Assembly (NCBI GenBank): GCA_017541205.1
Contig: JAFXZO010000060.1
Span: 1 to 34,570 of the forward strand
DNA length: 34,570 nucleotides
DNA from: Clostridia bacterium
GTDB lineage: Bacteria; Bacillota; Clostridia; Christensenellales; Aristaeellaceae
Reading direction: 5' to 3'
The notes beneath the pieces are model-generated. The model saw only the letters and a list, made by a program, of their open reading frames with translations, was not told where the DNA came from and did no database searches. Made by a program: the position numbers and the translations under genes. Shown here one piece after another: positions 7,432 through 32,276 of the stretch. Every line of letters begins with the position of its first letter. The first letter of the stretch is position 1.

Positions 7432-8358
7432 ATGAGCTTTCAAGTGGCGCTGGCGCAGGTGCTGGTCACATTGCTGTACATCGTTCCGGGGTATCTATGC
7501 AGCAAAATGAAAAAAGCGTCCCCCCGGCATCTTCCGACCCTGGGCGGCATCTTGGTGTACGTGTGCGGGCCCGCGCTGCATACGAACGCGTTCCTGAGCA
7601 TCGATTATTCGCCGGAAACGCTGAAAAACATGGCCGTGTTTTTCCTGCTCACGCTGATCCTGCAAAGCGCGTTCATGGCGATCCTGTACGCCGTATTCCG
7701 CAAAAAGCAGGGCGACAGCCGCTTCCGCATCCTGAATATCGGCTCCGTTCTGGGCAACGTGGGCTTTTTCGGGCTGCCGGTCATCCGCGCGCTGCTGCCG
7801 GCGTACCCGGAGGTGGCCTGCTATTCCGCCATTTACAGCATCACCATGAATATCCTGGTGTTCACGATGGGCGTTTTTTGCCTGACGGGCGAAAAGAAAT
7901 ACATGAGCGTGCGGTCCGCGCTGCTGAACCCGACGATGATCAGCTTCTTTGTGGCGGTCCCCCTGTTTTTGATGAACGCCCGGCGCTTTCTCCCCTCCCA
8001 GGTGCTCAGCGCTTTGCAGCTGCTTGGCGGCATGTCCACGCCGCTTTGCATGTTCGTGCTCGGCGTGCGCCTGTCCCAGAACAGCATGAAGAAACTGTTT
8101 TCCCAGCCCTTTGTATATGCCGTCAGCTTTTTGAAGCTGCTTTTGTTCCCGCTGTTCTGCTTCGCGGCGGTCTGCCTGCTGCCGCTTTCCATGCCGATCA
8201 AGGCGAGCGTGCTGATCCTGTCCGCCACCCCCTGCGCCTCCGTGATCCTGAGCCTGGCGGAGCTCCATCAAAAGCAGATGGATCTGGCGGCCAGCTGCGT
8301 GCTGGTTTCGACGCTGCTTTGCTTTATGACCATCCCGGTGATGACGCTGCTCGTTTAA
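7432..8358 (+). CDS. AEC (auxin efflux carrier) family transporter
   Basis: A 308-residue integral membrane protein with about ten hydrophobic segments in two halves, the arrangement of the AEC/BART superfamily. Family features include N-x-x-F/Y-x-G-L-P (NVGFFGLPVI) in the first half and a small-residue segment SATPCASVILSLAE near the end of the second. Bacterial members carry malate, malonate and other organic anions; the substrate here is not predictable. A purine-rich GGAAGGG ribosome site precedes the ATG. It stands alone, divergent from the PHP phosphatase gene. Confidence 0.8.
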   Translation: MSFQVALAQVLVTLLYIVPGYLCSKMKKASPRHLPTLGGILVYVCGPALHTNAFLSIDYSPETLKNMAVFFLLTLILQSAFMAILYAVFRKKQGDSRFRILNIGSVLGNVGFFGLPVIRALLPAYPEVACYSAIYSITMNILVFTMGVFCLTGEKKYMSVRSALLNPTMISFFVAVPLFLMNARRFLPSQVLSALQLLGGMSTPLCMFVLGVRLSQNSMKKLFSQPFVYAVSFLKLLLFPLFCFAAVCLLPLSMPIKASVLILSATPCASVILSLAELHQKQMDLAASCVLVSTLLCFMTIPVMTLLV

Positions 8359-8432
8359 CGTTATCATTCTAAGGGTTCATGGTAACGCGCGGACGGCGAT
8401 TCTATCCCCCGCGTATCCGCAGCCTCAACCGC

Positions 8433-8545
8433 CGCAAGGTCCGCTTCAAGCGGACATTGCGATCCCGGAGGAGGGCATGCGGCCGGCCATGGGCCGCGCT
8501 GGCGCGCATGAAGGTTCGGGCCCTGCTGATATCAGCGGGGCCCCA
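8433..8545. repeat. Palindrome-rich intergenic segment
   Basis: The 229 bases between the transporter and the terminator at 8588 hold no convincing gene. They hold an imperfect palindrome at 8433-8461 (two 14-base arms around one base, one mismatch, centred on GTCCGCTT/AAGCGGAC). GC-rich inverted segments follow around 8477-8512, and then a near-perfect 26-bp palindrome GGGCCCTGCTGAT/ATCAGCGGGGCCC at 8518-8543. This could be a structured RNA, a protein-binding site or a palindromic repeat. Confidence 0.4.
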
Positions 8546-8587
8546 TGGTTTTGTTTGCGTTTCAGAATGGGAATTTTTCCTGCGCTT

Positions 8588-8617
8588 GCCCTCCGGGCGC
8601 GGGGACGGGCTTTTTTT
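8588..8617 (+). terminator. Rho-independent terminator upstream of sigG
   Basis: GCCCTCC (8588-8594) pairs with GGACGGGC (8603-8610) with one bulged C, followed by seven T residues (8611-8617). It isolates sigG from upstream transcription. Confidence 0.75.
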
Positions 8618-8629
8618 GACGGACGCCGC

Positions 8630-8660
8630 TGCATAACCTGCGTTTCGCGGTGCCATACTG
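8630..8660 (+). promoter_or_regulatory. Candidate sigma-G (or sigma-F) promoter of sigG
   Basis: TGCATA (8630-8635), 18 bases, then CATACTG (8654-8660). This resembles the sigma-G consensus (GYATR and CATnnTA at 17-18 bp), apart from the last base. The predicted start near 8667 leaves just enough leader for the GGAGG at 8669-8673. No sigma-A promoter is seen between the terminator and the gene. Confidence 0.5.
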
Positions 8661-8680
8661 CTTTTGACGGAGGTGGCAGT

Positions 8681-9460
8681 ATGGCGACAAGCAAAGTGGA
8701 AATCTGCGGCGTGGATACCGCGACGCTGCCCGTGCTCACCAATGAACGCATGCGCGAACTGTTCCCGCTGGTGCACGGCGGCGACCGCGAAGCGAGAGAA
8801 GAATTCATCCGGGGAAATCTGCGCCTGGTGCTCAGCGTGGTGCAGCGCTTCGCGCATCGGTGCGACAGCGCGGACGACCTGTTTCAGGTGGGCTGCATCG
8901 GGCTCATCAAGGCGCTGGATCACTTTGACGTGACGCAGAACGTCCGGTTTTCCACCTATGCGGTGCCCATGATTATCGGGGAGATCAGGCGCTATCTGAG
9001 GGACAATAACCCCATCCGGGTCAGCCGGTCCCTGCGCGATACGGCGTACAAGGCCCTCCAGGCGCGGGACCGTCTGGCCCTGAGCATGAACAGGGAGCCC
9101 ACGGTGGAGGAAATGGCCAAGGAGCTGGGCGTGCCGCGCGAGGACGTGGTTTTCGCCCTCGAAGCCATCCAGGATCCCATCTCGCTCTTTGAGCCCGTGT
9201 ACAACGACGGCGGCGACGCCATCTATATTATGGATCAGGTGCGCGACGATAAACACGCCGACGAGAATTGGCTGGAGCATATCGCGATCAAGGAGGCCAT
9301 GCGCAGGCTCAACGACCGGGAAAAGAAGATCCTGCGCCTTCGCTTTTTCGAGGGCCGCACGCAGATGGAGGTGGCTGGCGAAATTGGCATCTCGCAGGCG
9401 CAGGTATCCCGATTGGAGAAAAACGCGCTGCTGCATATGCGGAAATATGTGGCCGGCTGA
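8681..9460 (+). CDS. sigG: Sporulation sigma factor SigG
   Basis: A 259-residue sigma-70 family factor of the sporulation subgroup, acting in the forespore after engulfment. The N-terminus carries the SigG-specific VEICGVDT...LPVL motif. It is followed by region 2 (DDLFQVGCIGLIKA, FSTYAVPMIIGEIRRYLRDN), region 3 and the region 4 helix-turn-helix (EIGISQAQVSRLEK). I chose the ATG at 8681 because GGAGG lies 7 nt upstream and the protein then begins like known SigG; longer in-frame extensions lack a ribosome site and cross the terminator. In many spore formers sigG follows spoIIGA-sigE, but here neither is adjacent. It indicates an endospore-forming ancestry. A terminator follows. Confidence 0.95.
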   Translation: MATSKVEICGVDTATLPVLTNERMRELFPLVHGGDREAREEFIRGNLRLVLSVVQRFAHRCDSADDLFQVGCIGLIKALDHFDVTQNVRFSTYAVPMIIGEIRRYLRDNNPIRVSRSLRDTAYKALQARDRLALSMNREPTVEEMAKELGVPREDVVFALEAIQDPISLFEPVYNDGGDAIYIMDQVRDDKHADENWLEHIAIKEAMRRLNDREKKILRLRFFEGRTQMEVAGEIGISQAQVSRLEKNALLHMRKYVAG

Positions 9461-12278: not shown

Positions 12279-13271
12279 TTATTTGATGACCTTGAGCGCC
12301 TTGCGGTCGATGGTCAGGGCGACGAAGAGCAGGAAGACGAGACCCTTGATGAGCTGCTGGGTGGCGGATTCAAAGCCCAGCATGACCAGGCCGTTGTTGA
12401 GCACGGTATACATGAGCGTGCCCACGATGATGTTGGAAAAGCGCACCTTCGCGCCGCCCGTGATGGGCAGGCCGCCCAGCACGAGGGAAATCAAAATCTG
12501 GGTCTCCAGCTGATTGCCGGCGGTCGAGGTGATGGAGCCGACCTTGATGACGTTGACGAACGCGGCGAGCCCGGTGAGCGCGCCGGCGGCGACGAAGGCC
12601 AGGAATTTGACCCGATTGGTGCGCACGCCGGAAAAGCGCGCGGCGGTTTCGCCGGAGCCGACGGCCTTCACGTCCGTGCCGATCCGCGTGAACTGGAACA
12701 GGAAGAAGGCGATCGCGAGCACCGCCAGCGTCACGGTGATCTTGATCCAGTCCTCATCCAGCGCTTTGATGGCGGAGCTGGCGGGCACGGCGGTCTCGGT
12801 GGTGAGATACGCGCACACGCCGCGGAAAAGGTACATCGTGCAGATGGTGACGATGAAGCTGGGCAGCTTGAATTTCACATGCACGAACCCGTTGAACGCG
12901 CCGATGGCGGCGCCGGTCAGGATACCGCCGAGGATCGCCAGCGGGATGGCGAGCGCCCCCAGACTGTCCAGCCGGGTGCTGATCACGCTGATGACGATGG
13001 AGGCGACGCCGAGGGTGGAGCCCTCGGTGAAATCGATGGAGCCGAGCGTCATGATGAAGAATACGCCCGTCGCCACGATGGCGGGATAGTAAACCTGGCT
13101 GAGCAGCAGGCGGATGCGCTTGGGCGTGAGGAGCTTGCCGCCGGTGAGGATATTCATGCCCACCACGATCAGCACCAGGCCGAGGAAGGGAAGCAGCGCC
13201 TTGAACGTGCTGCCGGTGAAGAATGCGAGAAACCTGGATTGCCTGCGCTCGTTGGATTTCGTGTTTTCCAT
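12279..13271 (-). CDS. Sugar-type ABC transporter permease (second)
   Basis: A 330-residue membrane protein of the RbsC/BPD_transp_2 family with about eight to ten membrane segments. Family features are IDFTEGST...VASIV in the first half and the loop GSGETAARFSGVRTNRVKFLAF, then LGGLPITGGAKVRFSN. It is the last gene of the importer operon. AAGGAGG lies 8 nt before the ATG, and the ATPase stop is only 13 bases upstream. It presumably forms a heterodimeric channel with the other permease; ribose-type systems usually encode one permease, while autoinducer-2 and some other sugar systems encode two. Confidence 0.85.
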   Translation of the reverse strand: MENTKSNERRQSRFLAFFTGSTFKALLPFLGLVLIVVGMNILTGGKLLTPKRIRLLLSQVYYPAIVATGVFFIMTLGSIDFTEGSTLGVASIVISVISTRLDSLGALAIPLAILGGILTGAAIGAFNGFVHVKFKLPSFIVTICTMYLFRGVCAYLTTETAVPASSAIKALDEDWIKITVTLAVLAIAFFLFQFTRIGTDVKAVGSGETAARFSGVRTNRVKFLAFVAAGALTGLAAFVNVIKVGSITSTAGNQLETQILISLVLGGLPITGGAKVRFSNIIVGTLMYTVLNNGLVMLGFESATQQLIKGLVFLLFVALTIDRKALKVIK

Positions 13272-13284
13272 GTCCTTCGCCTCC

Positions 13285-14820
13285 TTACACCATCTTCGCG
13301 ATCAGGTCTTCTTCATTCAATTCCGGGCTGCGCAGGAACTCGCCGTTGATGCGCCCGTCCTTGAGGATGAAGATCCGGTCCGACATGCCCAGCAGCTCGG
13401 GGATTTCTTCCGAAATCATGATGATGGATTTGCCCTTTTCCTTGAGCTCCTCCATCAGCGCGTAGATGGCCTGCTTCACCTTGACGTCGATGCCGCGGGT
13501 GGGGGAGTCCAGCACCAGGATATCGCTGTTCTTGCCAAGCCAGCGGGCCAATACCACCTTTTGCTTGTTGCCGCCGGACAGGTCGGAAACGAACTGTTTT
13601 ACGTTCTGCATCTTGGTCTGCATCTGCTTGGCGTGCTGATCGGCAAAGCGCGTCAGCTTCCGGCCATTGAGCAGCCCGTGGCTGGCCAGCTCCTCCAGGG
13701 AGGGCAGGGCCACGTTGTTGCGGATGGATTCGTTCAGGATGATGGATTCGTTGTCGCGGTCCTTGGAGGCATAGGCGATGGAATGGCTGATGGCGGTGGG
13801 GATATCGTTGATCCGCGTGCCGTCGGCCAGGGCAACCTGGCCTGTCCGATCCCAGGACGCGCCGAAAATGGCTTTGCCGACCTCGTGCATCCCGCATTCG
13901 GACAGGCCGCCGAAGCCCAGGATCTCGCCCCTGTGCAGATCAAAGCTGATGCCGTGGATTTCGCCCGGAACAGCCACGTCCCGCACGGACAGGACCACTT
14001 CATCCGAAATGGGCGCGCCGTAATCGGTGCGGTAGTAGGCGGAGCCGATTTCGCGGCCGACCATGAGGCGCTTGAGATCGTCCTCGGTGACATCGCCGGA
14101 GCGGACCGTATCGATGTACTCGCCGTCGCGCAGCACCGAAACGGTATCGGCGTGCGAAAGCACCTCGCCCAGGTCGTGGCTGATAAAGATGACCGAGCGC
14201 CCGTCCGCGCGGACGGCGTCCATGATCTTGTACAATTCCAGGCGGCCGTTCTGGCTCAGGGCCGTGGTGGTCTCGTCGATCACCAGGATCTTGGGCTTCA
14301 TGTAGGTGCCCTTGACGATCTCGATGAGCTTGCGGTCTTCAAAGTTATATTGATCGATCATTGACGCCGCCTTGATGCGGCCGAAGCCGTACTGATCCAG
14401 CAGGCGCTGCGCCTCGCGGTTCATGGCGCGGGAATTTTTGACGCCGTGGCTCACGAAGGGATCTTCGTGGCCCAGAAAAATGTTTTCCGCCACCGTCAGG
14501 CCCGACAGCGTGCCCATCTCCTGCACGATGATGGAAATGCCGGCGTTGTTCGCTTCCACCTGGTTGCGGATGCGAAGCTTCTGCCCTTCGAGCGTGAATT
14601 CGCCGGCGCCGATGGTGTATATGCCGCACAGCATCTGGCAGAAGGTGCTTTTGCCGGAGCCGTTCTCGCCGATCAGGGCGCGGATCTCGCCCGCGTCGAC
14701 GGTGAGCGATACGTCGTTGACGGCGTGGGTCATGCCGAAGCGTTTGTCGATATGGCTGGCGACGAGCAGCGTTTTCTTTTCCTTGGCGCCGCCTTTGGCG
14801 AGCTGCACTTGGTTTTTCAT
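13285..14820 (-). CDS. Sugar-type ABC transporter ATP-binding protein (double NBD)
   Basis: A 511-residue fusion of two nucleotide-binding domains, as in RbsA/MglA. NBD1 has a good Walker A (GENGSGKST, about 51-59) and Walker B with catalytic Glu (ILVIDE), but its signature is degraded (YNFEDRK instead of LSGGQ). NBD2 shows the reverse. Its Walker A is replaced by GGLSECGMHE and its Walker B Glu is Ser (LVLDSPTRGIDV), but it has an intact LSGGNKQK signature. One composite ATP site is therefore complete and the other degenerate. The ATG at 14820 is preferred over a GTG at 14829 because GTGAGG sits 8 nt upstream of it. Confidence 0.9.
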   Translation of the reverse strand: MKNQVQLAKGGAKEKKTLLVASHIDKRFGMTHAVNDVSLTVDAGEIRALIGENGSGKSTFCQMLCGIYTIGAGEFTLEGQKLRIRNQVEANNAGISIIVQEMGTLSGLTVAENIFLGHEDPFVSHGVKNSRAMNREAQRLLDQYGFGRIKAASMIDQYNFEDRKLIEIVKGTYMKPKILVIDETTTALSQNGRLELYKIMDAVRADGRSVIFISHDLGEVLSHADTVSVLRDGEYIDTVRSGDVTEDDLKRLMVGREIGSAYYRTDYGAPISDEVVLSVRDVAVPGEIHGISFDLHRGEILGFGGLSECGMHEVGKAIFGASWDRTGQVALADGTRINDIPTAISHSIAYASKDRDNESIILNESIRNNVALPSLEELASHGLLNGRKLTRFADQHAKQMQTKMQNVKQFVSDLSGGNKQKVVLARWLGKNSDILVLDSPTRGIDVKVKQAIYALMEELKEKGKSIIMISEEIPELLGMSDRIFILKDGRINGEFLRSPELNEEDLIAKMV

Positions 14821-23960: not shown

Positions 23961-24701
23961 TTATGCGGAGGCGCCGCGCCGGGTGAGGCGGGATGCCAGG
24001 ACGCCCGCCTCGTACAGCAGGCACAGCGGCACGCCGAGCGCCACCTGGCTTACGATGTCGGGCGGCGTCAGGACGGCGGCCAGCACGAAGACGCCCAGGA
24101 TCACGTACTTTCGCTTGGAGGCGAGCATTTTGGCGTCGGTCAGCCCGGCCTTGGCGGTCAGATACAGCGCAAGGGGCAGTTGAAACGCGGCGCCAAAGGG
24201 CACGATGAAGCCGAAGAGAAACGCGACGTACTGATCCAGCGAGAGCATCGGCGTCGCCAGCCCTTCCCCCTGCACGAGGAAAAAATCCAGCGCCAGGCTG
24301 TACACCGCGAAATAGCAGAAGGATACGCCCAGCAAAAACAGGGCGACCATGATGAAAAAAACCGCCCGAAACGCCTTTTTTTCCCGGGGATACAAGGCCG
24401 GCCGAACAAAGCCCCAGACCTGCCAGATCACAATCGGGCTCGCCGCGATCACGGCTGCGATCAGGGCCACCTTCACTTTGGTGGTCACGGCCTCGGACAG
24501 GGCGGTGTAGATCACCTCGATCCCGCGCGCCGAAATCGGGCCGGTAATGAAGTCCATCAGGGGATTGATCGCCAGGAAAAAAATCAGCATGAAGGCGGCG
24601 GCGACCGCGATCAGGGAAATCAAGAGCACCCTGCGCAGCGCGAGCAGATGGGAAAGGAGCGGCGCGCGCTGCCCGCCTCCCGCTTGTCCGTTTTCGCTCA
24701 T
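23961..24701 (-). CDS. tatC: Twin-arginine translocase subunit TatC
   Basis: A 246-residue six-helix membrane protein, the receptor for twin-arginine signal peptides. Recognisable family parts are LLSHLLALRRVLL at the N-terminus, SPIVIWQVWGFVRPALYPREKKAF in the first periplasmic/second helix region, and AFLFGFIVPFGAAFQLPLALYL. AVLTPPDIVSQVALGVPLCLLYE follows. The start overlaps the tatA stop by 4 bases. It is last in a tatB-like, tatA, tatC operon that is divergent from a gene for an evident Tat substrate at 25347. Confidence 0.93.
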   Translation of the reverse strand: MSENGQAGGGQRAPLLSHLLALRRVLLISLIAVAAAFMLIFFLAINPLMDFITGPISARGIEVIYTALSEAVTTKVKVALIAAVIAASPIVIWQVWGFVRPALYPREKKAFRAVFFIMVALFLLGVSFCYFAVYSLALDFFLVQGEGLATPMLSLDQYVAFLFGFIVPFGAAFQLPLALYLTAKAGLTDAKMLASKRKYVILGVFVLAAVLTPPDIVSQVALGVPLCLLYEAGVLASRLTRRGASA

Positions 24702-24877
24702 GCTTTCTCCTGATCGTCAGGCGGATCTTTTTTTTCGGCCGTATCGTCCTTTACTTCGTTTTTGAAATCCTTGATGCTCTTGCCCAGGGCTTTGCCGACG
24801 CCCGCCAGCTTGCCGCCGCCGAACAGCACCAGCGCCAGCACGAGGATCAGCAGGATCTCCCACGTTCCAAGATGCAT
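24698..24877 (-). CDS. tatA: Twin-arginine translocase pore subunit TatA
   Basis: A 59-residue protein with one N-terminal membrane helix (TWEILLILVLALVLF), the FGGGKLAGVGKALGKSIKDFK hinge and amphipathic helix, and an acidic tail. The start at 24877 is preferred to 24883 because GGGAGG then has a 7-nt spacing instead of none. It overlaps tatC by ATGA and begins 2 bases after the tatB-like stop. Confidence 0.9.
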   Translation of the reverse strand: MHLGTWEILLILVLALVLFGGGKLAGVGKALGKSIKDFKNEVKDDTAEKKDPPDDQEKA

Positions 24878-24879
24878 GT

Positions 24880-25158
24880 TCATTCCTCCCGCTTGATGTT
24901 GTCAAAGGTTTGCTTTGCTTTTTTCAGTTCGCCGGAAACATCCGCCTGCCGGACGGCGCCTTCAAAATCCCCGCGCACCTGCGCGGCCTGGGACGCCAGC
25001 TCATTCCAGCCGGATTCTTCCTTCAATTGGCGGATCAGCCTTTTTAAGCGTTTCGCCGCGCGGCCGAGAAAGCGGGCCACCTTGGGCAGATCCTTCGGGC
25101 CGACGATCACATAGGCGATGAGCAGCACCACCATGAATTCCCCAAACCCGATGTTCAT
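24880..25158 (-). CDS. tatB: TatB-like twin-arginine translocase subunit
   Basis: A 92-residue TatA/TatB-family protein. It has one N-terminal helix (GFGEFMVVLLIAYVIV), the hinge GPKDLPKVARFLGRAAKRLK and a long charged amphipathic helix of about 60 residues. The Glu near position 7-8, GPxDLP and long helical tail favour TatB over TatA. Many Firmicutes have only TatA and TatC, so a three-part set is of interest. The start at 25158 is taken because the hydrophobic helix begins there; a G-run ribosome site lies about 11 nt upstream. It is first in the tat operon. Confidence 0.82.
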   Translation of the reverse strand: MNIGFGEFMVVLLIAYVIVGPKDLPKVARFLGRAAKRLKRLIRQLKEESGWNELASQAAQVRGDFEGAVRQADVSGELKKAKQTFDNIKREE

Positions 25159-25186
25159 AACGCCCAGGCCCCCTTTTTGCAGATTT

Positions 25187-25215
25187 ATTATAATGCATCT
25201 TTCCATCCATTTCAA
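25187..25215 (-). promoter_or_regulatory. Promoter of the tatBAC operon
   Basis: On the minus strand TTGAAA (25215-25210), a 17-bp spacer and TATAAT (25192-25187). It is 29 bases from the start of the tatB-like gene. Confidence 0.7.
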
Positions 25216-25251
25216 GCGCCTGCGCGCCTTGAACAAAGGGAAGATTTGGGA

Positions 25252-25280
25252 TTGCTTTTTCCGTTCATCTGTAATATAAT
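25252..25280 (+). promoter_or_regulatory. Promoter of the C-x-C peptide cluster
   Basis: TTGCTT (25252-25257), a 17-bp spacer and TATAAT (25275-25280). It is divergent from the tat promoter, with 36 bases between the two -35 boxes, so a shared regulator site could fit there. Confidence 0.6.
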
Positions 25281-25346
25281 GGAATTCAGAAATAGATATC
25301 TTGAAAACCCGCTTCCCTCCCCATCCCCATCGAAAGGAGATACACC

Positions 25347-25793
25347 ATGAAACGGCTGAAAAAGGAGCAAAACGCGCCTCTCCCTCCATCCGATAACGAA
25401 CAGGGGGTCCTGATATCGCGGCGGGATTTCCTCAAAGGCACCGCGGGCTTTGTGCTGCTGTGCGGCGTCGGCTTTGGCGCGCGCGGCCTGATCGGCGCGT
25501 TATCAAGTGAAAAAGACCCGATAGGCCCGCAGCTTGTGGACGAGCTGAGCATTATCCGGGAAGCGTCCGGCGGCGCGCGGGTAACGGCGGCGGGCTTGAC
25601 CTGCTTTACGGTAAACGAAACGGGGGAAAGGCTGCTGCAGCTGGCGGACGGCCGCCATACGCTGGAGGACATCATCGCAAAGAGCGGCCTGTCCTCCCAA
25701 GCCGAGTCCGTTGCGGATTTCTTCCTCACCCTTGGCCGGGCGGGCTATCTGACAGCCAGGCTGGAGGTGAACAAAGTTGCCGTCCAAGTGTGA
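25347..25793 (+). CDS. Tat-signal PqqD-like peptide-recognition protein
   Basis: A 148-residue protein. Residues 24-30 are SRRDFLK, an exact twin-arginine motif, followed by a hydrophobic stretch (about 31-51). No strong cleavage site is seen, so the segment might remain as an anchor. From about 78 to 140 the sequence follows the PqqD / RiPP recognition element pattern: FTVNETGERLLQLADGRHTLEDII, a short helix, then DFFLTLGRAGYL. PqqD domains bind the leader of a precursor peptide and present it to a radical SAM enzyme, normally in the cytoplasm. A Tat signal on such a domain is unexpected. GAAAGGAG precedes the ATG. It overlaps the next gene by 17 bases. Confidence 0.8.
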   Translation: MKRLKKEQNAPLPPSDNEQGVLISRRDFLKGTAGFVLLCGVGFGARGLIGALSSEKDPIGPQLVDELSIIREASGGARVTAAGLTCFTVNETGERLLQLADGRHTLEDIIAKSGLSSQAESVADFFLTLGRAGYLTARLEVNKVAVQV

Positions 25794-27105
25794 ACTGTTT
25801 GTGGTGCGGGATGAAAAAGGCCCCATCTTATACGCGCCGCTCAAGCATCTGTCCGCCCGGCTGAACGAATCGGCCATTGCCGCCGTCAGCCGCAGGCTGT
25901 ACGGGAAGCCCCTGAGCGAAGAAGACAGGGACTGCCTTCGCCTCCTGGAGGAATGCGGCTTCTTTGAAGAGACGGAGCTGCCCGTCAACCAGGTCCAAGC
26001 CCCCGTGCAGGTGACCCTGTTCCCGACAGACGGGTGCAACCTGCGCTGCCGCTACTGCTACGCGGGCGCGGAAAAACGGCGCCACGTGATGCCCCTGGAG
26101 GTCGGCAAGGCCGCGATCGACCTGGTGGCGGACAACGCGAAAAAATTGAATTACTCCGATTTTGTGGTGAGCTTTCACGGCAACGGCGAGCCGTTTTTCG
26201 CCTTTTCCCTGGTGCAGGACCTGTGCCGGTACGCCCATGAGGCGGGGGAGAGGGTGGGGATCAAGCCAAAGCTTTCCGCCGCGACCAACGGCGTCATGAA
26301 CGACGAGCAATTGGATTGGCTGATCGCCTGGTTTGAAAGCGCGAACATTTCCTTCGACGGCACGGAGGAACTGCAAAATCGGCAGCGGCCCATGGCGGAC
26401 GGAAGCGGCAGCTTCCCCTATGTGCACAAAACGCTCAAGCGCCTGAACGACGCCGGGAAAAGCTTCGGCATCCGCTCCACCCTGACCGCGTCGAGCGTGG
26501 AGGAATTGCCGAAGATCGCCGCCTTCGTGCTGGAAAACTACCCGCGCTGCAGCACCCTGCACGTGGAGCCCGCGTGGGAGGCGGGCAGATCGCTCGTCAC
26601 CGGGGAACGTACGCCCGAGGCGGAATCGTTCATCCAAAAGTTCATCGAGGCGGAAGAGCTGCTTCAGGGAAAAATACGCCTGGTTTTTTCAGCGGCAAGG
26701 GCCGAAAACATCAGCCTGGCTTTCTGCGCCGTCTGCCGCGATTCGTTCGTGGTCACGTCGGAAGGGCTTGTCACCTCTTGCTACGAGATCTGCGAAATGA
26801 GCGATCCCCGCGCCTGCCGCTATGTGTACGGCGCGTACAGCCCCGAGGAAAAGCGCTTCGTGCTGGACGATGAAAAGCGGGCCGACCTCCACCGCCTGAC
26901 GGTGGACAACATGCCCGGCTGCAGGGACTGCTTCTGTAAATACCATTGCAGCGGCGACTGCGCCGCAAAGCTCCTGGGCCTGAACCCACCGGAAAAGCAC
27001 GCGGGCAGCGTCCGCTGCCAGATCACCCGCGCGCTGACGCTGCGACAGATCCAAGCGTCACTCAGCAAAGAACCACTCAATGAGGAGGAAAACAACCATG
27101 CCTGA
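25777..27105 (+). CDS. Radical SAM/SPASM peptide maturase
   Basis: A 442-residue enzyme. The radical SAM cluster is C87-x3-C91-x2-C94 (CNLRCRYC), and the GNGEP motif that helps bind SAM is at about 135. The C-terminal SPASM domain is complete: C320-x9-G-x4-C335, then C382-x2-C385-x5-C391-x3-C395 and C414, enough for two auxiliary Fe-S clusters. This combination makes thioether or C-C crosslinks in peptides such as sactipeptides and ranthipeptides. Residues 1-75 may help bind the substrate. The start is TTG at 25777, with GGAGG 9 nt upstream inside the previous gene. The stop lies 8 bases inside the following peptide gene, which is the obvious substrate. Confidence 0.88.
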   Translation: MPSKCELFVVRDEKGPILYAPLKHLSARLNESAIAAVSRRLYGKPLSEEDRDCLRLLEECGFFEETELPVNQVQAPVQVTLFPTDGCNLRCRYCYAGAEKRRHVMPLEVGKAAIDLVADNAKKLNYSDFVVSFHGNGEPFFAFSLVQDLCRYAHEAGERVGIKPKLSAATNGVMNDEQLDWLIAWFESANISFDGTEELQNRQRPMADGSGSFPYVHKTLKRLNDAGKSFGIRSTLTASSVEELPKIAAFVLENYPRCSTLHVEPAWEAGRSLVTGERTPEAESFIQKFIEAEELLQGKIRLVFSAARAENISLAFCAVCRDSFVVTSEGLVTSCYEICEMSDPRACRYVYGAYSPEEKRFVLDDEKRADLHRLTVDNMPGCRDCFCKYHCSGDCAAKLLGLNPPEKHAGSVRCQITRALTLRQIQASLSKEPLNEEENNHA

Positions 27106-27442
27106 CGATCGCCTTACATCCGCCGACGCCGAAAAGAAGCTGCCCAAGCCGGAAGTGTACATCGTGCGAAATGGCGAGGCTGTATTCAAGCCCGGTATGA
27201 AGACCTGGTTCGTGGAAAGCAAAGAGAGCAACGGCGCGGACAGCTCCGGCGTCGTGCATGGCCAGACGGGGGTCGTGGTGGGCGGCACGGTCTGCACCTG
27301 CGACAAGGTCAGGATCTGTACCTGCGAGGTCACCTGCTCCTGCCAGAAAACCTGCTCCTGCCAGTCCACCTGTTCCTGCCAATCCGTGGGCCGCACCTAT
27401 TGCTCCTGCGACCCGTATTGCTCCTGCTACCCGGTGCATTGA
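27098..27442 (+). CDS. Cys-rich precursor-like peptide with seven C-x-C motifs
   Basis: A 114-residue protein without signal peptide. Residues 1-65 look like a leader: charged, then Gly-rich, ending TGVVVGGTV. Residues 66-114 hold all 14 Cys as seven C-x-C pairs (66/68, 74/76, 80/82, 86/88, 92/94, 102/104, 108/110). Four starts are exactly 6 residues apart (74 to 92), giving a hexad C-x-C-x-x-[T/I/Y]; three units are CSC preceded by T and followed by Q. No family name comes to mind. It is probably modified by the radical SAM enzyme just upstream. A metal-binding, metallothionein-like role is the alternative. GAGGAGG lies 9 nt before the ATG at 27098. Confidence 0.82.
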   Translation: MPDDRLTSADAEKKLPKPEVYIVRNGEAVFKPGMKTWFVESKESNGADSSGVVHGQTGVVVGGTVCTCDKVRICTCEVTCSCQKTCSCQSTCSCQSVGRTYCSCDPYCSCYPVH

Positions 27443-27452
27443 GGAGGCCAAC

Positions 27453-28319
27453 ATGAAAAGAAAACTGTGCCGCGCGCTTTCCGCGCTTTTGATCGCCTGC
27501 CTGTGCCTGGGCCTTTTGCCGCCTGCGCTGGCGGACGGCAAACCCCTCCCCGTGGATACGAGCAGCTATCCGACCACCATCGATGTCCGCATAACGGGCA
27601 CCACCGCGTTTGAGCGCGCGAACGAATGCTATCTGGCGGGCGATTACCTGAATGCGGAGAGCTATTACATGTTCGCCCTCAAGCGGATCAGCAGCTCCAA
27701 ACGCTATACCAAGGGCGACGTATGCAACAACCTGGTGCTTACCTACCTGCAGCTGGGGCAGAACGACGAGGCCTATGCCCTCTGCCGCTACATGCTGGAG
27801 GAGGGCCTGGCGAAAACGGACAGGGACGCTTACGGCTACATGCTGAATATGCTGGTCTGCGCCCACGCGAAGGGCATCACGGCGGCGGAGGAATTAAAAT
27901 ACGCCGTGGAAAACGATCTCTTTTCCTTTTCCAAGCTGAACAGCCTTTCCGAAGAAAAGCCCGGCATGTACAGGAAGCTGCTGGTCGCCATGATCTACAA
28001 TGCGGTCTATATCGACATGGAAGGCGGCGCGGCGGACGGCGCCGCGTCCTACGCCTTTTATCCGATCGAGCTGGTTGACGGTTTGGTGAACGCGGATATC
28101 ATGGAAGACATCGGCGCGATCCTGGACGAAGACGGCGGGGAGATCAGCGATGCGGAGCGGAACATGGCCGACGAAATGATGAGCAGGAGAGATTATTTGG
28201 AATTCCTTTACGACCTGCTGAATACGATCGACGAAGCCAACAGCGAAATCTACGATACCTATGACCCGGATATTTCGGCATTGAAAAAATACCTGAGCGC
28301 CCTGATGGAGAAAAACTGA
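27453..28319 (+). CDS. Secreted helical-repeat (TPR-like) protein
   Basis: A 288-residue protein with a clear signal peptide (MKRKLCRALSALLIACLCLGLLPPALA, cut about residue 27). The region of about 50-140 reads as TPR-like helix pairs: ERANECYLAGDYLNAESYYMFAL, VCNNLVLTYLQLGQNDEAYALCRYMLEEG, then AYGYMLNMLVCAHAKG. The remainder is helical and acidic with no named domain. GAGGAGG precedes the ATG at 27453, 10 bases after the peptide stop, and the stop overlaps the next ATG by one base, so it belongs to the cluster. It could be an extracellular partner or receiver of the exported peptide. This role is inference only. Confidence 0.72.
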   Translation: MKRKLCRALSALLIACLCLGLLPPALADGKPLPVDTSSYPTTIDVRITGTTAFERANECYLAGDYLNAESYYMFALKRISSSKRYTKGDVCNNLVLTYLQLGQNDEAYALCRYMLEEGLAKTDRDAYGYMLNMLVCAHAKGITAAEELKYAVENDLFSFSKLNSLSEEKPGMYRKLLVAMIYNAVYIDMEGGAADGAASYAFYPIELVDGLVNADIMEDIGAILDEDGGEISDAERNMADEMMSRRDYLEFLYDLLNTIDEANSEIYDTYDPDISALKKYLSALMEKN

Positions 28320-29695
28320 TGGCAGGGCTGCGCGTTGCGCTCGTCCGCCCGCGGTGCGATTGCCCGGACCCGGAGTTTCAGGAGCCGCTTGGGGCGGAGG
28401 CGATCTGCGGATATCTGCGCGAAAAAAACATACGCTGCGAAGTATTTGACCGGCTGCTGGGCGTCACGGCAAGCGACATCGACGCCTTCCAGCCGGACTT
28501 TATCGGTTTTTCCCTGATGACGAACGCGGACGTGCCGGACGCGCTGCGGCTGAGGCAGATCCTTGGGCGGGGCGGCCGCCGCTTTTTTGCGGGCGGGCTG
28601 TTCGTGACCACGTGCCCCGAACAGGCGCGGGCGCTCTTTCCCGCGGACACCGCGCTGATTTCCGGGGAAGGAGAAGGCCCGGTCTTGGAGCTTGTGACGG
28701 CGGGCCGGCCGCTGGGCCGTTTGTTTCCCTCGCCCGACGAATGGGCCTTTGCCAGCCGGGACCGTCTGGACGAATACCTTGCCCGCGGCGGCGTCATCAA
28801 CATCCGCGCTTCCCGGGGCTGCCGGGGCGCGTGCGCTTTTTGCACCACCCCCCGCGCGGGCCGTCCGATGCGCCATCAAACGCGCAGCGTTGAAAAGATC
28901 GCCGATGAAATGCAGCGTCTGATCCAGGCGGGGCATCCGGCGGTCTTTAACTTTACGGACGATATGTTCGGCGATCATACGCGGATCGAAGCGCTGGAAA
29001 GAACCCTTTCGGAAAGAAACCTCCGGGCGGCGTTCACCCTGGAAATGCGCGCGCAGGAAGTGGCGAAAACGCCTGTGGATCTGTGGCCGGCGCTTCACGC
29101 GGGCGGGCTGTGCCGCGTGTTCACGGGCCTTGAAAGCCTGAATCCAGATACGCTGGCCGCCTGGAACAAAACGGTGCCCATCCCGGAATTAAAGGACGCG
29201 CTGAAAGTCCTTCGCGCGTGCGGCATCGCCTGCGAGGTGGGCTACATCCTTTGGCATCAGGAAACGACGCCCCAGAGCGCGTGGGAGGAAGCCGAGGCGC
29301 TGCATGAGCTCTCCTTGCTTTCCCCCAAATCGGCGCTGTCCCGGCTGGTATTGTATCCGGGCAGCCTGCTGCATGCCCGCATGCAGGCGGATGGGGTGGC
29401 GCTTTGCCCGCTGGGGCCCGGCGCGCAAAGACAGTTTCGCCGCTGGGAAGCGCTGCTCATGGAGCTGAGGCAGCTGTGGTACAGCGCGTCGTGCGTGCAT
29501 CCCAAAATGGTGTGCGACGCGTTTTTATCCGCCGCGTGCGTCGGGCCGCTGCGCGCGCTGGAGGCCTGCCTGGAAAGGATCCGGGATCTTACGTACCAAA
29601 CCCTCCGCGAGGATCGGGAACCGGATGAGACAGAATTACAAACGATACGGGGTGAGCTGCTTGCGCTTCACAGTGCCGCTGCAGGACGCCGGTGA
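28319..29695 (+). CDS. B12-binding-type radical SAM enzyme
   Basis: A 458-residue enzyme. The N-terminal 140 residues follow the Rossmann-like cobalamin-binding domain of class B radical SAM enzymes (RVALVRPR, LGAEAICGYL, FQPDFIGFSLMT, RFFAGGLFVTTCPE); the classical DxHxxG is absent. The radical SAM cluster is C168-x3-C172-x2-C175 (CRGACAFC). Further barrel motifs are FTDDMFGDH, FTGLESLNPDTL and EVGYILW. Relatives methylate unreactive carbons or build rings. The ATG overlaps the previous stop (TGATG). In this context it may be a second peptide-modifying enzyme, but a small-molecule role is equally open. Confidence 0.8.
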   Translation: MAGLRVALVRPRCDCPDPEFQEPLGAEAICGYLREKNIRCEVFDRLLGVTASDIDAFQPDFIGFSLMTNADVPDALRLRQILGRGGRRFFAGGLFVTTCPEQARALFPADTALISGEGEGPVLELVTAGRPLGRLFPSPDEWAFASRDRLDEYLARGGVINIRASRGCRGACAFCTTPRAGRPMRHQTRSVEKIADEMQRLIQAGHPAVFNFTDDMFGDHTRIEALERTLSERNLRAAFTLEMRAQEVAKTPVDLWPALHAGGLCRVFTGLESLNPDTLAAWNKTVPIPELKDALKVLRACGIACEVGYILWHQETTPQSAWEEAEALHELSLLSPKSALSRLVLYPGSLLHARMQADGVALCPLGPGAQRQFRRWEALLMELRQLWYSASCVHPKMVCDAFLSAACVGPLRALEACLERIRDLTYQTLREDREPDETELQTIRGELLALHSAAAGRR

Positions 29696-30554
29696 GGTCG
29701 CGGTCCTGAAAAATCACGGGGCGGACGAGCTTTACTGCGGTTATCTGGACGATACGCTGCGCGCTTTGTACGGCGGCGACGCCACCTTGAGCCGGCGGCA
29801 GGGCCAGGCCAACGTATCCAGCCCCGAAGCGCTCAAAGCGCTGGCTCTGGAGGCCCGGCGCGCCGGCATCCCGGTGCATCTGGCCCTGAACGCCCGCGTG
29901 ACGGCGGAGCAAATGCCGCATTTGATCCGGATCGCGAACATGTGGGCGGACTTTGGCGGCGACGGCGTCATCCTCCAGGACCCGGAGCTGCTGCGCCGCC
30001 TGCGCGCGATCCCGACGCTGCAGTTTACAGTCTCCCTCCTGGCCGTTACGGTGAATCAAAGCGGGGCGGCCTTTTGGCGCTCCCTCGGCGCGGACCGCAT
30101 CGTGCTGCCGCGCTTCCTTTCGCCCGGCGACATCCGCGCCATCACGGCCGCCGTGCCGCAGCTTACCTACGAAGCCATGGTGATGGGCGACCAATGCCTG
30201 TTCGTGGACGGCTTCTGCCGCTCCGTGCACGCGGAGAACTTTGCGCCTGCCGCGCCGGGGGAGACGCCTTCGCGCGTTGTTTGCACCTACCATACCTCGG
30301 GAAACGCGTATCACCTCTGCCGCGATTATGCCGAGCCCCGGCCGGACCCCTGCGCCGCCTGCCTGCTTTCCGAGCTGGCCGATAGCGGCGTTTCGATCGG
30401 CAAGCTCGGCGGGCGGGGCATGCCGCTGGAAATGCGGCTGCGCTGGCTTGATTTTTTACGGGAAGCGCTGCGCTCCCCGTCTCCCGCGCGGTATCGGGAA
30501 TCGTTCGGGCATGATTGTAACTGCTATTATCCGGGAAGGGAGGACGCGCAATGA
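29625..30554 (+). CDS. U32-family protein (UbiU/TrhP-like)
   Basis: A 309-residue member of the U32 group, named peptidases but including oxygen-independent hydroxylases such as UbiU, TrhP and RlhA. Family features are RFTVPLQDAGEVAVLKNHGADELYCGY at the start of the barrel and GADRIVLPRFLSPGDI. Likely Fe-S ligands are among Cys191, 198, 220, 232, 243 and 246 (QCLFVDGFC, VVCTYH, CAAC). The ATG at 29625 lies 71 bases inside the preceding gene; a GTG at 29652 is an alternative start but has no ribosome site. It overlaps the next gene by ATGA. Confidence 0.75.
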   Translation: MRQNYKRYGVSCLRFTVPLQDAGEVAVLKNHGADELYCGYLDDTLRALYGGDATLSRRQGQANVSSPEALKALALEARRAGIPVHLALNARVTAEQMPHLIRIANMWADFGGDGVILQDPELLRRLRAIPTLQFTVSLLAVTVNQSGAAFWRSLGADRIVLPRFLSPGDIRAITAAVPQLTYEAMVMGDQCLFVDGFCRSVHAENFAPAAPGETPSRVVCTYHTSGNAYHLCRDYAEPRPDPCAACLLSELADSGVSIGKLGGRGMPLEMRLRWLDFLREALRSPSPARYRESFGHDCNCYYPGREDAQ

Positions 30555-31222
30555 AGGCGGAACCAATGCGGATCGCCCTGGGCCATCCTTCCTGCCCCGG
30601 CGTCCTGCGCGGGCTTGCCGCCCAAATGCGCGCCCTAAAAGCGGATCAGCCGCTTCGCCTGACGCTGCCGCCGGTCACGCCGACGCTGGATAAGGATGTG
30701 GATGAGATCCTGCGTATCGCGCAGGCGTTTTCGGACGTGGAAATTGCCGCCAACGACTGGGGAACGCTCGCGCGGCTGTCCGAATGGAAAAAGACGCGCG
30801 CTCCGAAGCTTACGCTGATCCTGGGCGTATTGCTCAGCGCCCAGGATACGGACCCGGTGCTCGATACGTTCTTGTCGCCGCAGCCGGAAAACGCCGTCCG
30901 CGCCGGGCAGGAGGCCGTGACGCTGCGTTGGGCGCCGCCGCCGGAAGCGCTCCGGCAGCATTGGGCGACGCCGTCCGCGTTTCATTGGACGCCGCTGCTC
31001 AGGGAAATGGGCGTGGACGCCGTCGAGCTGGGACTCCAGCCGCTTCCGCTTACGGACGCAGATGGTCGAATGCCCATCCGGGCTTATCCCTTCGGCGTGC
31101 TCAGCGTGATGCCCTGCCGGGGCAATTGCGCGCTTTGCGGCGGGCCGGACGCCGTACGCGCCGGACGCAGGCTGTTTTTCGACCGGAATCTGCTGCTTTG
31201 GGAAGAGGCTGACCAACGCTGA
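30551..31222 (+). CDS. Diverged U32/UbiV-like protein
   Basis: A 223-residue protein that follows the smaller UbiV-like U32 pattern. It has a barrel start, [10 protein letters not shown] (compare NDWG/NDLG in the family), a GVDAVELG strand and a Cys-rich end [10 protein letters not shown] (Cys189, 193, 196), with Cys15 a possible fourth ligand. The resemblance is weaker than for the preceding gene. In UbiU-UbiV the two proteins form a heterodimer, so this adjacent pair may do likewise. It starts by a 4-base overlap with the U32 gene and stops 13 bases before the macrodomain gene. Confidence 0.6.
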
Positions 31223-31235
31223 AAGGAAGGCTCAC

Positions 31236-32276
31236 ATGCCGTTTGAAATCATCCGAAACGATATTACCGCCATGCGGGTGGACGCCATCGTGAACGCCGC
31301 GAACAAATCGCTGCTGGGCGGCGGCGGGGTGGACGGGGCGATCCATCGGGCGGCGGGGCCAGCGCTTCTGGCGGAGTGCCGCACCCTTTGCAGCTGCGAA
31401 ACCGGTCAGGCCAAGATCACGAAGGGCTATCGCCTGCCCGCGAAATACGTGATCCATACGGTGGGCCCGATCTGGCATGGGGGAGAATACGGGGAAAAAG
31501 CGCTGCTGGACGCCTGCTATCGAAACGCGCTTGCCCTCGCGCTGGAATACGGCTGCGAAACGGTCGCCTTTCCCTTGATTTCCGCGGGCGCGTACGGCTA
31601 TCCCAAGGATCAGGCCATGGCCGTTGCCGTGGAAGCGATCACCGATTTTCTATTGAAGCACGAGATGACGGTTTACCTGGTGGTGTTCGGGCACACGGAA
31701 TTTTTGACCGGGAAAAAGCTGTTCCGCGACGTGCAGGAATATATTGACGACGTGTACGCCGCAAGCCATGTGCGCAAGGACACCGAGCATACCCGAAGGG
31801 CCCTCTGGCAGCAGGACGAGGAAGCGGCGCTTCAGATGGATATGGAGCTGTCCGCCGCGCTGGACTATGCCCGGCCGATGCCCGCGGCGGCGCCTAACGT
31901 GGACTGGGATCAGCTGCTCAAACAGACGGACGAAGGGTTTTCTCAGGCCTTGCTGCGCCTGATCGATGAACGGGGGCTGACCGACGCGCAGTGCTATAAA
32001 CGGGCCAACGTGGACAGGAAGCTTTTCAGCAAGATCCGCTCCAACCCCGCCTACAGGCCCAGCAAACCCACGGTATTCGCCTTTGCCGTCGCCCTGGAGC
32101 TGAGCCTGGATGAAACCAGGGAGCTGCTCCGCAAGGCGGGTTTTGCCCTCTCGCACAGCAGCAAATTCGATATCATCCTGGAATACTTCCTCAAAAACCG
32201 CCGCTTCAACGTTTTTGAAATCAACGAGGTGCTTTTTGAATTCGATTTGCCGCTGCTTGGCTCCGGCATGGCGTGA
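31236..32276 (+). CDS. Macrodomain protein with C-terminal HTH-like domain
   Basis: A 346-residue protein. Residues of about 1-165 are a MacroD-type macrodomain: [27 protein letters not shown] and [11 protein letters not shown] are the two ADP-ribose-binding loops. Such domains remove ADP-ribose or deacetylate O-acetyl-ADP-ribose. Residues of about 225-345 are a separate helical domain with [26 protein letters not shown], a repressor-like helix-turn-helix pattern, ending in the [16 protein letters not shown] segment. AAAGGAAGG precedes the ATG. It lies 13 bases after the U32-like gene, so it may share its transcript, but it may equally pair with the VWA gene that follows. Confidence 0.8.

Follow-up and report, generated by a model that had tools for sequence, protein, structure and literature searches.

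A candidate radical SAM peptide operon of a Clostridia bacterium whose recognition protein may double as a Tat export carrier

Introduction

Why would a protein thought to recognise a precursor peptide carry a twin-arginine translocation (Tat) export signal? The question is raised by seven genes, here A to G, at positions 25347-31222 of the Clostridia bacterium contig JAFXZO010000060.1 (GenBank assembly GCA_017541205.1); the window is the whole stretch of DNA analysed, 34,570 nucleotides in length. The original prediction took these genes for a system making a ribosomally synthesised and post-translationally modified peptide (RiPP), with a Tat-signal PqqD-like recognition protein (A), a radical S-adenosylmethionine (SAM) maturase with a SPASM domain (B), a 14-cysteine C-x-C peptide (C), a secreted helical-repeat protein (D), a B12-type radical SAM enzyme (E) and two U32-type proteins (F and G). 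On balance, we favour a radical SAM RiPP-type operon with export built into the recognition protein.

Organisation and conservation of the operon

The seven reading frames all lie on the + strand, and the junctions from A to G measure, in order, -17, -8, +10, -1, -71 and -4 bases, which bears out the tight same-strand packing that had been described. The rest of that description stood in part, with corrections to the starts of C and D and to the U32 status of G: the peptide start at 27080 was replaced by 27098, the probable start, with AGGAGG upstream, and gene D probably starts at 27453. For all pairs computed across the seven genes, the ratio of nonsynonymous to synonymous substitution rates (dN/dS) was below 0.6, and dN was lower than dS throughout.

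Profile searches and a neighbourhood comparison, both proposed with the original prediction, were run. Relatives of maturase B were found at nine loci in named genomes (L007-L015). The complete operon was present at L007, L008 and L009, with maturases 74%, 73% and 72% identical to B, and all parts recurred at L011 (59% identical), where F and G form one fused frame and the operon is headed by tatA, two tatC genes and a second maturase. The L008 genome came from sheep omasum and the L009 genome from sheep rumen; L007 and L011 belong to RUG genomes, which we take to be rumen genomes. At L008, gene G (12860-13609) is interrupted by an in-frame stop, for which decay and assembly error are both possible.

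The Acidobacteriota locus L010 held a Tat-tagged protein of the RiPP recognition element (RRE) type, three radical SAM genes, a free C-x-C peptide and a large secreted protein of 1176 residues, TPR-like at its start by eye and with PKD and PPC domains over cut-off; no U32 profile match was found within the stretch read. Maturase, free C-x-C peptide and Tat-RRE were combined in the Clostridia operons of the window, L007, L008, L009 and L011, five in number, and at L010, which supports the RiPP-type reading, and a secreted protein came after the peptide in all six.

Another kind of short peptide adjoined the maturase at L012, L013 and L015. These peptides (L012:2829-2999, L013:9271-9498 and L015:9055-9276, from Spirochaetota, Bacteroidota and Verrucomicrobiota) have C-x-RIS[HR]-C-S-C-[ND]-C in common, and no NCBIfam match was found for the two that were scanned; they look like a separate radical SAM peptide family.

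Searches among related genomes returned few carriers. Of 80 genomes related to that of L007, 3 had a maturase match at E 1e-60, namely L007-L009 themselves; of 198 related to that of L011, 1 had a match at E 1e-55, L011 itself. Tat-RRE matched 1 of 391 class genomes at 1e-4, the window genome itself. Among the 28 other genomes of the genus, there was no match at 1e-20. Peptide homologues widespread without the maturase had been named as counter-evidence to a RiPP; a peptide profile matched 5 of 291 class genomes, one being the window genome. The other four matched in core columns alone (68-132, 61-131, 37-111 and 66-116 of 136); two of these were low-complexity repeat tracts, and two were frames of about 900 and 1040 residues, in whose fetched surroundings no maturase, Tat-RRE or U32 profile match was found.

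Recognition protein, precursor peptide and maturase

Gene A (25347..25793, +) encodes 148 aa, with a twin-arginine (RR) signal (SRRDFLK followed by a hydrophobic stretch) and a PqqD/RRE-like domain. The signal scored 16.9 bits against TIGR01409 (cut-off 16.7), or 19.9 in the genome search, and 19.4 against PF10518, below the cut-off of 22.7. The PqqD-like tail reached 20.4 bits against PF05402, below the cut-off of 23.4, and the L010 homologue was over the Pfam cut-off. Both parts of the predicted Tat-signal PqqD-like protein were present, each weak by profile. An AlphaFold2 model of gene A gave three strands and three helices over residues 67-131, and its best structural matches were RRE domains; the modelled fold agrees with the recognition role assigned earlier. 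We propose that A is a recognition protein that doubles as an export carrier.

Gene C (27098..27442, +) encodes a precursor peptide of 114 aa, consisting of the leader PEVYIVRNGEAVFKPGMKTWFVE, a core of seven C-x-C units and the tail YPVH. As predicted, all 14 cysteines lie within the seven units; when the 50-residue core was shuffled 20000 times, seven C-x-C without C-C arose in 18. The five Clostridia peptides have 7-11 units each, 49 in total, and no cysteine elsewhere. Of the 49 units, 45 have S or T in the middle and 47 are followed by N, Q, D or E; the spacing between units is six residues in 38 of 44 cases. The leader follows the motif PE[IV]Y-x-[IVL]-x6-[WF]. In Clostridia, the aromatic residue stands at motif position 13 and KPGMKTWFVE occupies the place of the RR segment of the cis forms described below; at L010, the aromatic residue is one position earlier. 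Between the window and L007, the leader (first 42 codons of C) had a dN of 0.097 and a dS of 1.17, and the rest of C a dN of 0.445 and a dS of 1.08. A conserved leader and a variable core beside a SPASM maturase were thus found, the leader conservation only over the window-L007 distance.

Gene B (25777..27105, +; 442 aa, TTG start) scored 43.3 bits against Radical_SAM (PF04055; cut-off 29.5), and its CxxxCxxC and SPASM cysteines were invariant in an alignment of nine chosen rows, in agreement with the predicted SPASM maturase. The top NCBIfam matches were PapB, SCIFF and nif11 maturases, with every cut-off missed: PapB (NF047865), the best, reached 115.6 bits (equivalog cut-off 340), and the SCIFF maturase (TIGR03974) 101.6 (cut-off 425). 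QhpD (TIGR03906) gave 75.1 bits (cut-off 453). PapB is described as making its links between Cys and an Asp or Glu no more than six residues away (PMC9413430). In the Clostridia peptides, D or E directly follows 17 of the 49 C-x-C units and lies within seven residues of 42 of the 98 cysteines; since only part of the cysteines are near D or E, the remainder would need amide acceptors or other chemistry.

Tat genes and Tat-tagged substrates

The RRE protein bears the Tat signal in six of seven free-peptide operons (window, L007, L008, L009, L011 and L010), where the substrate is without one. On the Tat signal, the original prediction was borne out; it mentioned neither the adjacent tat genes nor the cis-Tat relatives. 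The tat genes adjoin the window operon divergently upstream, all on the - strand: tatC (23961..24701; PF00902, 204.5 bits), tatA (24698..24883; PF02416, 65.5 bits) and a second TatA/B-type gene (24880..25389; PF02416, 32.5 bits, at residues 80-125 of the open reading frame), whose frame as called is over-extended, with the true start probably near 25158. As noted above, tat genes also stand at the head of the L011 operon. All 7 genomes that carry the system had TatC, as did 17 of 35 relatives that lack it, counts that ignore kinship. The sole TatC and Tat-profile matches of the L011 genome fall inside the operon. In the window genome (85% complete), gene A was the only Tat-profile match over cut-off, and FdhD was not found. 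In two genus mates without the operon, tatC adjoins an FdhD-like gene (L024:2878-3519 and L026:2224-2871), which suggests that Tat serves formate dehydrogenase there.

To find further relatives, the maturase alignment was run against 295 genomes related to the Acidobacteriota one and 251 related to that of Flexilinea, no more than 5 or 6 candidates being scored in each. At E 1e-50, 9 genomes on the Acidobacteriota side and 11 on the Flexilinea side were recovered, both query genomes counted. Substrates were scanned at 27 loci (25 fetched from these searches, L010 and L014) with leader and Tat patterns that were written after the sequences had been seen. Thirteen loci held 14 proteins with a leader of the same pattern ahead of a Tat RR motif: L014 (Flexilinea, Chloroflexota); L077-L081 and L084 on the Acidobacteriota side; and L088-L091, L093 and L100 on the Chloroflexota side. 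From the start of the leader motif to that of the RR motif, the distance was 15 residues in 13 of the 14 and 16 in L100, and leader position 13 was aromatic in 13. WD40 was over the Pfam cut-off in 11 substrates (L014, L077-L081, L084, L088, L091 and both of L093), with no match at 1e-8 in those of L089, L090 and L100; the C-terminus was HYW[HY]P-x in 10 of the 14. The remaining loci held free peptides in two cases (L010 and L076), were unclear in three and showed none in nine. The leader stands directly before the substrate's own Tat signal in Flexilinea and in further relatives, so that export in cis and in trans may be read as two forms of one system.

Six RR-bearing proteins of the cis loci, picked by eye as RRE-like (L014:6027-6557, L080:5034-5480, L081:11958-12578, L088:10825-11355, L089:9983-10507 and L090:9766-10422), have a charged segment instead of the Tat hydrophobic region, with a hydrophobicity of -1.19 to 0.93, compared to 1.58-2.01 in the trans RREs and 1.22-1.95 in the cis precursors. 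As RREs they are weak candidates (of two scanned, one matched Pfam PqqD at E 0.27 and the other gave no match), and they are possibly relics of a tag lost or gained.

Three further observations concern these loci. The L100 precursor (7854-9122), on a maturase-bearing contig, has the same leader and a Tat signal, with C-x3-C tail repeats and no C-x-C. A radical SAM gene that is HemN/HemW-like by eye follows the Tat precursor at L014:10653-12068, L088:15569-17002, L089:4274-5617 and L093:3531-5006. A 212-residue frame with 12 C-x-C units adjoins the maturase at L096:2261-2899 and gave no Tat motif and no NCBIfam match.

Partner proteins

Gene D (27453..28319, +; 288 aa) has a signal peptide by eye, and its L011 homologue a lipoprotein-type signal by eye. 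Secretion as predicted is consistent with these signals; the helical repeats fared less well, since all TPR matches were below cut-off (best 16.6 vs 25.7). We propose that D is a partner outside the cell. Gene E (28319..29695, +; 458 aa) has B12-binding and Radical_SAM domains, both over cut-off, as expected of a B12-type radical SAM enzyme.

Of the two U32-type proteins predicted, F held and G is unproven. Gene F (29625..30554, +; 309 aa) scored 80.2 bits against Peptidase_U32 (PF01136; cut-off 22.4) and 97.8% against UbiU in a profile comparison. Its residues E183, C191 and C198 (E-x7-C-x6-C) were invariant in five rows and match the spacing of the E and Cys residues reported as essential for hydroxylation in TrhP (PMC6599085), residue roles being taken from PMC6747719 as well. 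Gene G (30551..31222, +; 223 aa, C15...C189x3C193x2C196) gave no Pfam or NCBIfam match at E 1. It is called UbiV-like because F and G are fused into one 516-residue frame at L011, because its cysteines align with C39, C180, C193 and C196 of Escherichia coli UbiV (MAFFT) and because it shows a weak beta-alpha fold; the cysteine spacing is unlike the CXnCX12CX3C published for UbiV. G is perhaps a UbiV-like partner of F, a homology without statistical support. A macro-domain gene (31236-32276, +) starts 13 bases past G on the same strand.

Proposed pathway and its alternatives

In the pathway that we propose, the RRE-like domain of A would bind the leader of C and present the peptide to maturase B, which would, in the cytoplasm, form thioether links from cysteines in the C-[S/T]-C-[N/Q/D/E] units to residues close by. 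E may then make a B12-dependent modification, and the F-G pair, by analogy with related U32 proteins, may hydroxylate the peptide without O2 in a prephenate-dependent reaction. The finished, folded peptide, still on A, would exit as a passenger of A's signal through a Tat translocase built from the neighbouring tat genes. Outside, the secreted D would receive or display it; metal binding, redox, surface structure and signal are candidate roles. What the data show is the conservation of the operon, the leader, the modelled fold and the cis/trans pattern; leader binding, the chemistry, export and the final function are inferences from these.

Several observations weigh against this pathway. At L076, a free-peptide locus, the PqqD protein is without Tat and the peptide without the leader pattern. 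In the genomes of L007-L009, there are further Tat-type proteins as well as FdhD, tatC is on contigs other than that of the operon, and the gene A homologues go unmatched by the Tat profile. In the three close pairs among L007-L009, leader dN/dS (0.17-0.32) was no lower than that of the remainder (0.16-0.27). G showed no detectable profile similarity to F (1.4% probability) or to UbiV (hhalign 0.2%).

The substrate of F and G is the step most open to another reading. They may act on a small molecule or RNA, or F may cleave off the leader, as the name Peptidase_U32 would allow; we regard this as possible but somewhat doubtful. Ubiquinone precursors or RNA are the substrates of the characterised U32 oxidases covered by a 2024 review, which also places putative peptidases in the family (PMC11574389), and the seven proteins showed no other recognisable protease. 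Set against this, F keeps the E and Cys residues essential in TrhP, and F and G stand directly after E in all five Clostridia operons, with no U32 profile match in the other loci examined; this confinement fits an operon-specific substrate.

Instead of a secreted natural product, the operon could yield a redox or metal cofactor subunit derived from protein, comparable to the cross-linked gamma subunit of quinohemoprotein amine dehydrogenase (QHNDH), with D or the cis-form WD40 propeller as structural partner. The WD40 matches in 11 of 14 cis substrates and the QhpD score of B speak for it, and QhpC is reported to be cross-linked in the cytoplasm before export (PMC7876137). It is nevertheless unlikely, as the seven operon proteins gave no heme, amine-oxidase or quinone-forming match, nor one to the heme and protease partner genes of QHNDH, and the core varies from 7 to 11 units, unlike a fixed subunit.

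Unlikely too, and slightly more so, is a radical SAM RiPP operon in which the Tat segment does no more than anchor A in the membrane or target a chaperone that acts outside, the peptide staying in the cell or using another transporter. RRE fold and maturase do stand independently of export, and the untagged PqqD protein of L076 would fit; but in 13 loci the substrate bears its own Tat signal, immediately behind the leader pattern seen in C, two operons have tat genes beside them or at their head, and Pfam and NCBIfam scans recognised no transporter among the seven operon proteins. An unmodified, metallothionein-like C, with the radical SAM and U32 genes acting elsewhere, is improbable: C-x-C is a common metal-binding spacing that takes in every cysteine of C, and the close pairs show no leader constraint beyond that of the remainder, but over the window-L007 distance, with dS similar, the core has diverged more than the leader, which is the RiPP pattern, contigs from three phyla carry leader and maturase together, and in the window the genes for maturase and peptide abut.

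Returning to export by the recognition protein, we tentatively, and at somewhat less than an even chance, place the operon in a cross-phylum class of radical-SAM-modified, secreted Cys-repeat products that are Tat-exported with the tag on substrate or RRE, the Clostridia branch having an O2-independent U32 peptide hydroxylase. Systems of this group were found on contigs of Bacillota, Acidobacteriota and Chloroflexota and in further relatives of the latter two. If the proposal is true, an RRE would not only recognise peptides but also carry them out of the cell, Tat would serve as a natural exit for finished ribosomal peptides, and a peptide would join the substrates of U32 oxidases. The cis and trans forms and the adjacent tat genes turn an odd Tat signal into a testable export mechanism; as handles for searches, they offer a PE[IV]Y leader 15 residues ahead of a Tat signal and a Tat-RRE with a SPASM gene as its neighbour.

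Comparison with known systems

Among the papers listed by literature searches, which were thin on subscription journals, there was no Tat-tagged RRE, no Tat-exported natural radical SAM peptide and no U32 enzyme in a RiPP operon. Ranthipeptide and sactipeptide systems (PapA/PapB, SCIFF and nif11-like) are similar in their SPASM maturase, RRE-like partner and cysteine-rich core; the operon differs from them in reaching no equivalog cut-off, in a C-x-C repeat with mostly amide neighbours, in an RRE with a Tat signal, in a U32 gene and in a leader pattern common to Tat-WD40 proteins. The modelled RRE fold of gene A is shared with PqqD, TbiB1 and other stand-alone RRE proteins, which to our knowledge are cytoplasmic and without signal peptides.

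UbiU/UbiV, TrhP and RlhA resemble F in its TrhP-spaced residues, and the L011 F-G fusion parallels the UbiU-UbiV heterodimer. The U32 oxidases characterised are described as O2-independent, prephenate-requiring hydroxylases of RNA or ubiquinone precursors (PMC6747719, PMC6599085, PMC11574389), and no U32 protein acting on a peptide was found in the literature searched. Hitchhiker export, in which a Tat-tagged partner carries a signal-less folded partner, is reported as established for HybO/HybC and PaoABC (PMC4273604); in our proposal, unlike these pairs, the tag would sit on a peptide-recognition domain, with a modified peptide as its cargo. In the QhpC/QhpD system, the leader of QhpC is removed by QhpE and the ABC transporter QhpF exports it (PMC7876137), neither of which was recognised among the seven proteins here. 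QhpC is the nearest biological parallel, a subunit on which a radical SAM enzyme makes thioether cross-links in the cytoplasm and which is later exported.

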